Origin: Oscillospiraceae bacterium
Lineage (GTDB): Bacteria; Bacillota; Clostridia; UBA1381; UBA9506
Assembly (NCBI GenBank): GCA_015068935.1
Contig: SVJO01000013.1
Coordinates: forward strand, 1 to 34,005
DNA: 34,005 bases
Direction: 5' to 3'
A program made the translations under genes and the position numbers. Under the pieces are notes generated by a model that saw only the letters and a list, made by a program, of their open reading frames with translations, did not search any database and was not told where the DNA came from. The first letter of the stretch is position 1. Each line of letters starts with the position of its first letter. Positions 27,714 through 32,266 of the stretch are shown here, in pieces.

Positions 27714-28987
27714 TAATTATTTGCCTCGCTTTCTGCCGTCAGGAAATATACCATCTGTGGCTCAATTTTTTCTGCAACCCTGACTACATCTTGAAGTGTT
27801 ACCGCCTCTATTTTGTCAATTAATTCATCTATTGTAACATTTTTTCCCGTAACAATCTGTCCGAGATAATAGTCAGCGCTATAGCCGATATCGTCTCCAA
27901 ATGCTTTTAATGAGTTAGTGATGCTTTTTATTGTTGAATTAAATTCATAATCGGAGATGTCTCCAGAACGCATAGCTTCTAACTGGACATTTATTTCATC
28001 TATGGTCTTTTGCTTATTCTCAATTTCTATTCCTGAGCAAATTGTCATAATACCTTTATATCGTTCTAAACGAGATGATACATAATAGGCAAGGCTTAAT
28101 TTTTCACGCACATTATTAAAGAGTTTAGAATGGGCTCCACCTCCTAAAATTCCATTGTAGACCATTAAAGCAGGGTAGTCGTCATCCTGTGGCATTGTGC
28201 CGGTAGCATAGCCAAGACAGAGCTTAGCCTGTGTGACATCAAATTTTTCTGTTACATCTTCAGTTTTTGCCTTTTTAACATACATATCACAAACCGGATA
28301 TGATGTGTTTGACGGAGTAATATTTTTAAATGCCTCTTTTGTGCATGATATAACTTTTTTTATATCAACGTCACCTGTAATAAAAATATCTATAGGACTT
28401 TCAGAAAGAATTTTTTTATAATGATTATAAAGAGTAATGTTTGTTATTCTGTCAACATCTTGGGGTGTTCCAAGTTCATGTATTCCATAGCGGCTGTCTT
28501 TACACATGAGCTCTAAAATTCTCCATGCACTGTACGAACGCTTGTCGTTGATAATTGCAGAAATATCATTTTTTAAGTTGATTTTTTCCTGTTCTACATA
28601 ATCTTTTTTAAATCCGCCATCTTCTGTAAGAGGATTTAAAAGTAAATCATAAAGCAGCAAAATAGCTTTTAATGTACACTCATCACCGTCTAAATACTTA
28701 TCAGAAACCGCATTTACAGTAAATGAAATAATCTGGTCTTCGCCCTTTCTCTTTATGTTGGTATAAAGACCTGCACCATAAAGAGACTGGAGATATTTTG
28801 AGATTTCAATTGTGTCAGGATATTTTTCGCAGCCTCTGTGCATGACATCTGTAAGAAGTGTATTCATAGAAGCCTCAGATTTAGATAGTGGTCTGTGAAT
28901 ATTAACAGTGGCTGCAACCGTTTTAAATTTTTCTGTTTGAATATGATAAAGATTAATTCCTTTTTTAATATTATATTTAATCATCAT
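27713..28987 (-). CDS. ymfF: M16-like inactive partner, YmfF-like
   Basis: 424 residues with the M16 fold, seen in PLSKSEASMNTLLTDVMHRG near the N-terminus and the C-terminal GYATGTMPQDDDYPALMV and GGGAHSKLFNNVREK. Where active members have HxxEH it reads LLTDVMHRG, so the zinc site is missing. The second half keeps the glycine-rich substrate loop (GGGAHSKLF) and the following VREKLSLAYYVSS, as in substrate-binding partners. The start overlaps the rsmI end by 11 bases; AAAGGA precedes two adjacent ATGs. Confidence 0.86.
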   Translation of the reverse strand: MMIKYNIKKGINLYHIQTEKFKTVAATVNIHRPLSKSEASMNTLLTDVMHRGCEKYPDTIEISKYLQSLYGAGLYTNIKRKGEDQIISFTVNAVSDKYLDGDECTLKAILLLYDLLLNPLTEDGGFKKDYVEQEKINLKNDISAIINDKRSYSAWRILELMCKDSRYGIHELGTPQDVDRITNITLYNHYKKILSESPIDIFITGDVDIKKVISCTKEAFKNITPSNTSYPVCDMYVKKAKTEDVTEKFDVTQAKLCLGYATGTMPQDDDYPALMVYNGILGGGAHSKLFNNVREKLSLAYYVSSRLERYKGIMTICSGIEIENKQKTIDEINVQLEAMRSGDISDYEFNSTIKSITNSLKAFGDDIGYSADYYLGQIVTGKNVTIDELIDKIEAVTLQDVVRVAEKIEPQMVYFLTAESEANN

Positions 28988-29831
28988 TTAATTCCTTTCC
29001 GTCTAAATCTGCATTGTAAACATCACGCTTTGAAACACCTCTGTCACGCGCTACACATTTAAGAGCATCTTTTTTTTGAATACCCTGATTCATATAATAA
29101 TTAATATGCTCTTTAAGCGGTAAATTATTTAAAAATTCATCGCCGATAGTTTTTTCTTTTCCTTCAATGATCAGAACAAACTCACCGCGAGGCTCATTCT
29201 CCTCATAAAACTTTACAGCCTCACTTAACGTTGTGCGTTTGATTTCCTCATAAACTTTAGTAAGCTCTCTGCAAATGGCGATTTTTCGTTCGCCGAAAAA
29301 ATCATAAAGGTCAGAAAGAGTCTTTTTCAGCTTGTGCGGGGCTTCGTAGAAAATCAAAGTTTGTGTATAATCTTTAAAATTCTCGAGCTTTTCTTTTCTC
29401 TGCTTATTTATTGTAGGTAAAAAGCCGCAAAAAGTAAAAGTTGAGGTTGAAAAGCCTGAGCATATTAAAGCTGAAACAAAAGCAGTTGCACCTGGAATAG
29501 GAACTACTTTAATATTATTTTCAATACAGAGCTTAACTAAATCTTCGCCAGGGTCGGAAATTGCAGGTGTTCCGGCATCGGAAACTAAAGCAATATTCTT
29601 TCCATCATTTAAAAGCGAAATAAGGTATTCACCTTTGGATTTGGCATTATGCTTATAATAACTTGTAACCTGTTTTTTTATTTCCAAATGAGATAAAAGC
29701 GACATTGTGCGTCTTGTGTCTTCTGCAGCAATAATATCAGCATTTTTCAGGGTTTCTAAAGCACGCAATGTGATGTCGCCCAAATTACCTATTGGTGTTG
29801 CCACTAAGTATAAAATTCCTTTTTCGTTCAT
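28977..29831 (-). CDS. rsmI: 16S rRNA (cytidine1402-2'-O)-methyltransferase
   Basis: Modifies C1402 in the decoding centre. 284 residues. The tetrapyrrole-methylase fold is evident from YLVATPIGNLGDI, AAEDTRRT, SDAGTPAISDPG and PGATAFVSAL, followed by the family's FCGFLP and YEAPHKL. It starts within the last codon and stop of the methyltransferase gene upstream (ATGA), with GGAGG 6 bases before the ATG. The pairing with a YabB-type methyltransferase matches Bacillus, except that the small yazA gene usually between them is absent. Confidence 0.96.
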   Translation of the reverse strand: MNEKGILYLVATPIGNLGDITLRALETLKNADIIAAEDTRRTMSLLSHLEIKKQVTSYYKHNAKSKGEYLISLLNDGKNIALVSDAGTPAISDPGEDLVKLCIENNIKVVPIPGATAFVSALICSGFSTSTFTFCGFLPTINKQRKEKLENFKDYTQTLIFYEAPHKLKKTLSDLYDFFGERKIAICRELTKVYEEIKRTTLSEAVKFYEENEPRGEFVLIIEGKEKTIGDEFLNNLPLKEHINYYMNQGIQKKDALKCVARDRGVSKRDVYNADLDGKELNDD

Positions 29832-30493
29832 GCTTTTCCTCCCGTGATTTTAAGTCCGGGCTTTCTGTCCTTTTGCGCTTCTATGAGGACTAAAGCAGGT
29901 TCATCCTTTCCTCCGGTCAGATTGAGTCTTTTGGGTTCTAATTTGTATTTTCTCATTAAGTAAAAAATGTCAACTAGGCGCTCAGGGCGGTGTACCATGA
30001 AAAGTCTTCCTCCACTGCCTAAAAGATATGAAGAGCAGGAAATCACATCCTCTAATGTACACATAACCTCATGACGCGATATGGTCTTAGAATCATTTGA
30101 GTTTTTCTTGCCCGTCATATTTATCATATACGGCGGATTGCACGTGACTGCTGTATAACTGTTTGCACTGCAAAGCATTTTAATATTTTTTAAATCGCCG
30201 CACATTATAGAAATATCTCTGTTTAAAGCATTCAGCTCAATAGTACGCTTTGCCATATCTGCAATTTCTTCCTGAATTTCAAGGGCAGAAATATGTTTGG
30301 GTTTAATCTTTTGGTGGAGAAGGAGGGGGATTATTCCTGTTCCTGTACATAAATCCATTATAGTATCATTTGGTTTTATATTTGCAAAATCAGCAAGCAA
30401 AACAGCATCTGTTCCAAACTTAAAGCCATTTTCCTTTTGAAGAATTTTGTATCCGCCGCCTAAGTCCTCCAAAGTTTCAAATTCTTTAATCAT
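29828..30493 (-). CDS. TrmN6/YabB-like adenine-N6 methyltransferase
   Basis: SAM-dependent methyltransferase of the tRNA1(Val) adenine-37 N6 type, 221 residues. Motif I is [13 protein letters not shown] and motif [11 protein letters not shown], the latter typical of N6-adenine enzymes. LGGGYKILQ with [12 protein letters not shown] near the start is the family hallmark. It overlaps recR at the front and rsmI at the back, both by ATGA. The tRNA target is inferred from the family; YabB enzymes are less well studied than E. coli TrmN6. Confidence 0.88.
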
Positions 30494-31083
30494 ATTTCAC
30501 GCCTTCCATCTATGGCACGAGAGAGTGTGACATCGTCTGAATATTCTAAATCTCCGCCAACGGGTATGCCATGTGCAATTCTTGTAACTTTAATTCCAAG
30601 CGGTTTTAAAAGACCTCCAATATACATTGCTGTTGCTTCGCCCTCTATTGTAGGATTTGTAGCCATGATAACCTCTTTTATACCGCCTTCGTTTATGCGT
30701 GTTAAAAGCTCTTTAATGCGGATATCTTCAGGGCCGATTGAATCCATCGGAGAAATAACTCCGTGAAGGACATGATAAAGTCCTTTATATTCTTTAATTT
30801 TTTCTATTTTTGAAACATCCTTTGGATTTTCTACAACACATATCATTGAAGTATCACGTTTAGTATCTGAGCAGATGTGACATGGAATTGTTTCGGTAAG
30901 AGCACAGCAAATGGGGCAGAGAGTTATTTTTTCTTTTACATCCATTAATGTATCAGCAAATTTTTTTACATCTTCTTTGTCCATTTTAAGCACATGATAT
31001 GCAAGCCTTTCGGCACTTCTTTTTCCTATGCCCGGAAGTTTTGAAAATTCTTCTATCAGCATTGCGATAGGAACAGCATACAT
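30490..31083 (-). CDS. recR: Recombination mediator RecR
   Basis: Helps RecF/RecO load RecA at gaps. 197 residues from ATG 31083, the usual length. A TTG three codons earlier is rejected because it sits on the AAAGGA ribosome site. Helix-hairpin-helix: [15 protein letters not shown]. Zinc finger: [16 protein letters not shown]. Toprim: [10 protein letters not shown] and a later [15 protein letters not shown]. In most Firmicutes recR follows dnaX and ebfC; here it follows a MetH-like gene. Confidence 0.96.
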
Positions 31084-31116: not shown

Positions 31117-32148
31117 TTAATTGTCTTCCTGACTTAGTGAATTAAAATTAATAACCAAAGCACCTTTTTCCTTTGCGGCAATCTCCCCGTATTCATCAGA
31201 TTTTACCAGTGGTCTGCCAACATATTCATAAAGCAGTCTGTCCAAAATATCGGGGTCTTTAACGCAGAAACAAATAGCTCCGCTGTTTTGGGAGTTAACA
31301 ATTGAAAGAAGTTTATCAACATCTGTGTTTTCATCTTCAATCTTGATTTCAAGTATATTTTTATTGTCGCCGATAATGTTACCCTTAAAGTCCATAAAGA
31401 CAATTTCTTTTCTTGAACAAACCGCGTTAATTTCCTCGAAGTCAGGCATATATGGTTTGAACTGCCACAGAACCTTGGACATCTCAATATAATGCTTTAA
31501 TGTTGCTTTTTCTGACAGACCAATCATTGCACATTTATAATTGACAAAATTGGGAATATAATCAGAAAAAAGCTCAGGTGTCATAAATTCTGCATCAAGC
31601 CACACAAATAGCGGAATGGTAGTAAAATCGCACATTACAGAATATGTTTCCATAGCGACATCAATATCTGTATCAAATACACAGCCTATAGAATCAGCTC
31701 CCATAGCCTGGAGAGTTATTAGAGCAGATAGCGGAGAAGTGCCGTCTGATAAGTTTCCTGAGTCATCAAAACACAGACCGACATTTAAAGGGAGCTCCGT
31801 TGTTTCCTTTGCAGCACTGAGTGCATACTTAGCCTCAGCTAAGGTTTTAGCTCCGTTTAAAAAAATCATTGAAACACCGCTTTTATCAAGATAACTCACT
31901 TCATCTTTTATGGCATTAAAATACTCTTTAAAGTTTCCGTTAAAAGAAGGAATTCTAAATTCCCCTGCAGCGAAAACCTTATCGTCAGCAGCTTTTAAAG
32001 TATTTTCAATTATCTTCTTTTTTTCCTCTGCATTATTTGCAAGATGAGTCGGTGCGATTAAAATATTTGCCCCGCATTCCATATAATCTGAGAATAACTC
32101 CAAAATATCATCAGTTTTTTCAAACTCTGTAAGAGATGCAATGGACAT
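31117..32148 (-). CDS. Degenerate methionine-synthase-like (homocysteine-methyltransferase fold) protein
   Basis: 343 residues that look like the N-terminal barrel of MetH/homocysteine S-methyltransferases. Family-like segments are YMECGANILIAPTHLANN (usual AGADI..TNTFGAN) and a PLNVGLCFDD ... DGTSPLSAL ... MGADSIGC stretch (usual Gts, GadaiGlNC). The zinc ligands are missing: GxNC reads GCVF and no GGCCG motif exists. The DGAMGT start is also absent. The last 57 residues (from 287) recall the beginning of MetH's pterin domain (DPDILDRLLYEYVGRPL). No strong ribosome site precedes the ATG. It heads the recR operon with its own promoter. Function unknown; homocysteine methylation is unlikely. 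Confidence 0.65.
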   Translation of the reverse strand: MSIASLTEFEKTDDILELFSDYMECGANILIAPTHLANNAEEKKKIIENTLKAADDKVFAAGEFRIPSFNGNFKEYFNAIKDEVSYLDKSGVSMIFLNGAKTLAEAKYALSAAKETTELPLNVGLCFDDSGNLSDGTSPLSALITLQAMGADSIGCVFDTDIDVAMETYSVMCDFTTIPLFVWLDAEFMTPELFSDYIPNFVNYKCAMIGLSEKATLKHYIEMSKVLWQFKPYMPDFEEINAVCSRKEIVFMDFKGNIIGDNKNILEIKIEDENTDVDKLLSIVNSQNSGAICFCVKDPDILDRLLYEYVGRPLVKSDEYGEIAAKEKGALVINFNSLSQEDN

Positions 32149-32237
32149 AACATTTAAACTTAATATGGTTTTTAGTTGAGCGGTAGTAATAAAATCATCT
32201 CCTAATTGCCCTTAAAAGGACATAATCATTCATAATA

Positions 32238-32266
32238 ATTTTACTATATATACGATTTTTTTTCAA
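32238..32266 (-). promoter_or_regulatory. Sigma-A-like promoter of the MetH-like/recR operon
   Basis: On the reverse strand TTGAAA (32266-32261), a 17-bp spacer and TAAAAT (32243-32238). The leader to ATG 32148 is about 80 bases. Confidence 0.7.

Follow-up and report, generated by a model that had tools for sequence, protein, structure and literature searches.

The window, i.e., the whole stretch of 34,005 nucleotides that was analysed, carries a minus-strand open reading frame of 343 codons (31117-32148, counted from the first ATG) that encodes a protein related to methionine synthase (MetH). The features assigned at the locus are as follows.

31117..32190, minus strand: gene of the MetH-like putative pseudoenzyme, 357 codons if the inferred ATT is taken as start (orthologue alignment and N-termini, AlphaFold model)
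32188..32190, minus strand: inferred ATT start codon; 11 orthologues have ATG at this position
32199..32203, minus strand: Shine-Dalgarno AGGAG, 8 nt before the ATT (sequence)
32238..32266, minus strand: sigma-70-like promoter TTGAAA-17-TAAAAT (consensus scan, 10/12 matched)
31468..32190, minus strand: degenerate homocysteine-binding TIM barrel, residues 1-241 (eight strands in the AlphaFold model; Foldseek)
31675..31677, minus strand: first zinc-cysteine position, a Phe codon (GCVF where GxNC is expected; MetH alignment)
31507..31521, minus strand: GLSEK in place of GGCCG, with neither vicinal cysteine left (MetH alignment)
31153..31428, minus strand: collapsed pterin-binding half-barrel, residues 255-346, ending GRPLVKSDEYGEIAAKEKGALVI (hhalign to MetH 1-444)
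30490..31083, minus strand: recR (open reading frame and orthologues), the next gene downstream in 13 of 14 genomes
28977..30493, minus strand: trmN6-like methyltransferase gene and rsmI, with a 4-nt overlap, downstream in the same operon (open reading frames, conserved order)

The reading frame upstream of the internal ATG stays open to 32211, and no ATG, GTG or TTG codon occurs between the upstream stop and this ATG. The orthologue N-termini, MTTSQLKEILKSNIL (MTTSQLKEIL), correspond to ITTAQLKTILSLNVM (ITTAQLKTIL) in the window. ATT is present at the same start codon in L046 and L055 as well, where an alternative GTG three codons upstream lies almost on the ribosome-binding site. AUU starts are rare. 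Because of the open frame, the orthologue N-termini, the position of the AGGAG, and the ATT in L046 and L055, the start is most likely the ATT at 32190, and not the ATG at 32148. In the AlphaFold model, the first barrel helix and strand mostly precede the internal ATG, and the residues encoded before it are needed for helix 0 and strand 1. The consensus promoter proposed in an earlier, sequence-only reading of the locus is recovered by the scan, although shuffled sequences also score several matches in this region. Near the predicted transcript start, a 12-codon frame, ATGAATGATTATGTC...AGGAGATGA (32195-32233, minus strand), is noted that spans the ribosome-binding site and stops 4 nt short of the ATT; it may have arisen by chance, or may be a leaderless frame with translational coupling to the ATT.

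The names of the neighbouring genes, except DUF4340, are those that we presume from sequence inspection. In 13 of 14 genomes, and within the limits of the contigs, the pseudoenzyme gene is followed directly by recR and then by the trmN6-like gene, rsmI, two M16-type peptidase genes and lgt, with one extra gene after recR in some genomes. The exception is G001, where the pseudoenzyme gene lies on another contig, and where recR comes after pdxS- and pdxT-like genes. The gene was also thought to head the recR operon. This applies to the window genome, where a divergent alaS occupies the place of the missing upstream DUF4340 gene, but not to the relatives, in which the upstream neighbour is usually a DUF4340 gene (Pfam 2e-46) on the same strand, itself usually located behind birA.

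The assignment of the protein to the homocysteine-methyltransferase barrels is supported by both sequence and fold. The window protein matches the Pfam profile S-methyl_trans (PF02574) at 4e-9 (37.1 bits, cut-off 22), a sequence search of the PDB returns MetH structures (3e-6), and a Foldseek search with the model ranks MetH first (E 1e-17), with MmuM and BHMT also among the matches. A profile score above the curated cut-off together with the TIM-barrel fold places the protein by descent in the MetH/homocysteine S-methyltransferase superfamily, and not in a different family. The AlphaFold model calculated from the ATT start (mean pLDDT 77.8, pTM 0.72) features a complete eight-stranded barrel followed by a smaller beta-alpha unit, where the stub region is of moderate confidence and residues 244-252 fall below 50 pLDDT. 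In a profile comparison with hhalign, residues 1-348 of the family align with residues 1-444 of MetH, extending into the folate domain (probability 99.9). The C-terminal remnant of a pterin-binding domain noted earlier is thus real, but it comprises about 92 residues rather than 57. As judged from the aligned profiles, the ancestor of the window protein combined a homocysteine barrel with a folate barrel, the latter of which has collapsed to about half.

In MetH, zinc is bound by three cysteines, of which one follows strand 6 and the other two, which are vicinal, follow strand 8 (PMC539065). All three positions are altered in 14 of 14 family members aligned with MetH, which extends to the whole family what had been read from the window, namely GCVF in place of GxNC and no GGCCG. 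A sequencing error or local mutation as the cause of the cysteine loss is ruled out, as the cysteines are missing from every orthologue, including the close homologues in which they might have been retained. When the MetH of the same bacterial family is used as reference, none of the 14 members retains the motifs DGGMGT, NTFGAN, GPTG, ETM, NCSLGP, KPNAG, GGCCG, GERINPTGK and LDVNVG, which are either replaced or deleted. The window protein has ASLT in place of the DGAMGT segment; the motif is absent, as noted before, but the N-terminus is not cut off given the ATT start. Asp390 and Asn411, the pterin contacts in the T. maritima structure, align with Cys and Lys in the window protein, and no conserved Asp or Asn is found at these positions in the family. 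Since none of the 14 members has the three cysteines, they very likely do not act as homocysteine S-methyltransferases; nor does the window protein qualify as MetH, defined by a full folate barrel, GERINPTGK, LDVNVG and cobalamin domains, as only the half-barrel and no cobalamin domain is present. Methionine-synthase chemistry has very likely been lost in the window protein, which would not be able to activate homocysteine. A pipeline relying on the Pfam match would nonetheless annotate the protein as a methionine synthase or homocysteine methyltransferase, i.e., with a step that is very likely impossible for it.

In close orthologue pairs, dN/dS is 0.029, 0.063, 0.073 and 0.087; these figures are rough, with dS near saturation, and were measured on relatives, as the window sequence has diverged too far from every other one to give a useful estimate. 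Because of these low ratios the gene is not decaying, as the sequence-only reading had argued, and codon-level selection indicates that the protein is kept by purifying selection. The combination of lost catalytic residues and purifying selection is that of a pseudoenzyme, the inactivity of which is presumed. The constraint is unevenly distributed. Half of the 38 invariant columns (19) are located in residues 1-238 and none of these is charged; of the other 19, in residues 239-343, six are charged (K239, D250, D267, R326, E333, and E341). When the most distant member is omitted, mean conservation reaches 0.60 for the barrel, 0.75 for the linker and 0.81 for the C-terminal 44 residues, compared with 0.71 for the barrel and 0.36 for the linker of canonical MetH from the same bacterial family. 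The linker and the C-terminal half-barrel contain the invariant motifs W-Q-x-x-P-x-x-P-D-F and G-R-P-x-V-x-S-D-E-Y-G-E.

The gene is present in 14 of the 20 genomes of the host family, spanning four genera, with full-length frames in all 14. The 13 orthologues share 31-41% identity with the window protein, and together with it form one clade (support 100/100) on a long branch, confined here to one bacterial family. No orthologue was found in the remaining families of the order or in a sample of 391 genomes from across the class, where the family profile, outside family f1, detected only canonical MetH-type proteins besides the short proteins discussed below. A scan of database genomes with exact short peptide patterns gave 13 loci, all of them orthologues already known; the database relatives derive from uncultured Clostridia and Oscillospiraceae, and several come, judging by their record titles, from the gut of goats, sheep and buffaloes. 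With respect to a spread by phage, no relative was found in the viral contigs scanned, and we found no paper in the open-access literature on a homocysteine-methyltransferase pseudoenzyme, or on one linked to recR. The window genome (a single metagenome assembly of 1.3 Mb, 48 contigs, 91% complete) encodes an intact MetH of 796 codons on a different contig, i.e., the full-length enzyme that had been envisaged as a partner, and the majority of the family genomes carry both genes. An origin of the pseudoenzyme as a recent copy of the host's own MetH is unsupported, as its clade does not group with host MetH, although its branch is long. In G001 and G002 no full-length MetH was found. G003, which is 97% complete, has the pseudoenzyme gene and neither MetH nor MetE detected, and is perhaps a methionine auxotroph.

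Compared with T. maritima MetH (residues 1-566; 1q7q, 3bof), the window protein is co-linear over its full length and has the same barrel fold, but it lacks the zinc cysteines, the homocysteine and folate motifs, and the cobalamin domain, and its folate barrel is reduced to about half. BHMT and MmuM share the single homocysteine barrel fold, but are active zinc enzymes without a folate half-barrel. A precedent for a homocysteine-type barrel with binding sites obliterated after duplication is the N-terminal barrel of MetE, which has no sequence homology with MetH and, unlike the window protein, is fused to an active barrel (PMC539065).

Elsewhere in the class, short proteins of 400-440 residues are found that likewise combine a homocysteine barrel with a collapsed folate half-barrel. 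The window protein falls in the same class of short collapsed-half-barrel proteins (350-440 residues, ending at a KYGA-type strand). Short homocysteine methyltransferases such as L093, L094 and L209 (about 400-440 residues), which come nearest to the window protein in design, have this two-part architecture and a homologous C-terminal end; unlike the window protein, most of them keep the zinc and homocysteine motifs, and they have other neighbours, e.g., murI-DUF1934-argS. None of them reaches an NCBIfam cut-off. In family f67, 12 of 60 sampled genomes carry a short protein, and the genes are mostly located behind argS, often with murI and DUF1934 preceding. Across the 15 f67 copies the C-terminus, ending YGAI(V/L)Y or similar, is preserved. 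The zinc motifs are intact in L208-L212 and L216, have altered surroundings in L092, L214 and L215, and are lost in L091, L188, L195, L198, L213 and L217. As for the window protein, the zinc-less f67 copies are short, retain the C-terminus, and have MetH or MetE elsewhere in the genome; they differ in that the losses are separate, that some retain other motif parts, and that the genes mostly lie behind argS.

A tree of 63 proteins requires four changes of zinc state, read as losses in the window's clade, in L091 and L188, in L213, L195 and L198, and in L217. The branches that split losses from zinc-keeping sisters are supported by 99/91 (L208 with L091 and L188), 100/97 (L092 with L213, L195 and L198), and 100/97 (L215 with L217). 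The ratio of stub to barrel identity in f67 is 0.95 for pairs in which both proteins keep the zinc motifs, 1.16 for mixed pairs, and 1.34 for pairs in which both have lost them. All six zinc-less f67 copies come from genomes that also encode a full MetH (five copies) or MetE (one copy, G515), and the four f67 genomes without MetH and MetE (G499, G493, G478 and G509) retain the zinc motifs, two of them having an additional homocysteine-methyltransferase protein of 600 residues. This pattern comes from 15 related genomes, and Fisher's test by hand gives approximately 0.09, uncorrected for relatedness.

Based on the sequence comparisons, the window protein appears to be a MetH-type homocysteine methyltransferase that has become a lineage-specific pseudoenzyme. 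Most likely, a short homocysteine methyltransferase was made redundant by a full methionine synthase, and only a second, non-catalytic role would have been retained. The barrel would provide a folded platform, uncharged at its mouth, and the invariant linker and C-terminal half-barrel the working surface for self-association or docking of a partner. A retained binding or scaffolding function in the linker and C-terminal half-barrel is the reading that, judging from conservation, we find on balance probable, and the conserved family, the low dN/dS, and the loss of motifs in all members agree with the repurposed, non-catalytic barrel under selection that had been suggested from the window. The same C-terminal residues could also be viewed differently. 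K239, W242, Q243, D250, D267, R326, E333 and E341 might form a new catalytic site in a repurposed enzyme, which would account for the six invariant charged residues in the last third of the protein and for the C-terminal part being the best conserved in zinc-less copies. Such a site is nevertheless unlikely: searches of Pfam, NCBIfam and the PDB gave no motif of another enzyme family, and half a TIM barrel seldom makes a full active site. It is quite unlikely that the empty barrel instead acts as a sensor, binding homocysteine, methionine, folate or another ligand and regulating methionine synthesis or the recR operon. A TIM barrel is retained and the gene sits in a tightly spaced operon, but the homocysteine motifs at the strand ends have become non-polar or variable residues, the barrel has no invariant charged residue, and the domain searches show no DNA-binding domain. 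A role as partner subunit or competitor of full-length MetH is in keeping with the co-occurrence of the two genes in the window genome and most family genomes. We consider this role very unlikely, as the gene never adjoins metH in the loci read, and full-length MetH was not found in G001, G002 and G003. Because of G003, if truly without MetH and MetE, the partnership would not be obligate, which weakens the earlier proposal in this respect.

The genomic context invites two further explanations. The pseudoenzyme gene is present in 14 of 14 genomes with recR and in none of the six without it, and its position directly upstream of recR could be taken to indicate a factor acting with RecR or in DNA repair. 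We do not accept the co-occurrence as a functional link to recR, as most genomes in which the gene is absent have lost or miss the adjacent block as well: rsmI is detected in 15 of the 20 family genomes, and is missing from five of the six without the pseudoenzyme gene. Because of this, the absence concerns the whole block or its contig. With the separation of the two genes in G001, the location of related zinc-less proteins mostly behind argS, and the often functionally mixed content of operons with housekeeping genes, a RecR-associated factor becomes highly improbable. The four smallest genomes of the family (G004, G005, G007 and G008; 1.1-1.2 Mb) lack recR, rsmI and the pseudoenzyme gene together, either from true loss of the block or from assembly gaps. 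Least probable of all is a decaying relic, or one kept only as a leader for recR translation, as had been considered before. The loss of all catalytic motifs and the unusual ATT start would fit decay, but the full-length frames in 14 genomes of four genera and the dN/dS values contradict it. A leader function is unsupported because selection acts on the protein and G001 keeps the gene away from recR.

In extension of the preferred binding or scaffolding reading, the collapsed folate half-barrel may be a module with its own function, common to short homocysteine methyltransferases from several lineages within the class. Once a different methionine synthase takes over, the barrel chemistry could then go while the protein persists, an end point represented by the window's family and reached about four times. 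This generalisation is tentative, and we would stop short of calling it probable. The graded series of zinc sites, from intact through partly lost to lost, offers a direct test of whether a one-carbon enzyme can keep a second function after its chemistry is gone. Among the short homocysteine methyltransferases with intact zinc motifs, L199, L201, L202 and L205 adjoin a response-regulator gene, and a conserved gene of about 400 codons nearby may encode the sensor kinase of this regulator. In L093 (1020-2654), the short homocysteine methyltransferase directly follows a protein with a 2Fe-2S N-terminus that by eye resembles corrinoid-reductive activators, which hints at a corrinoid methyl donor.
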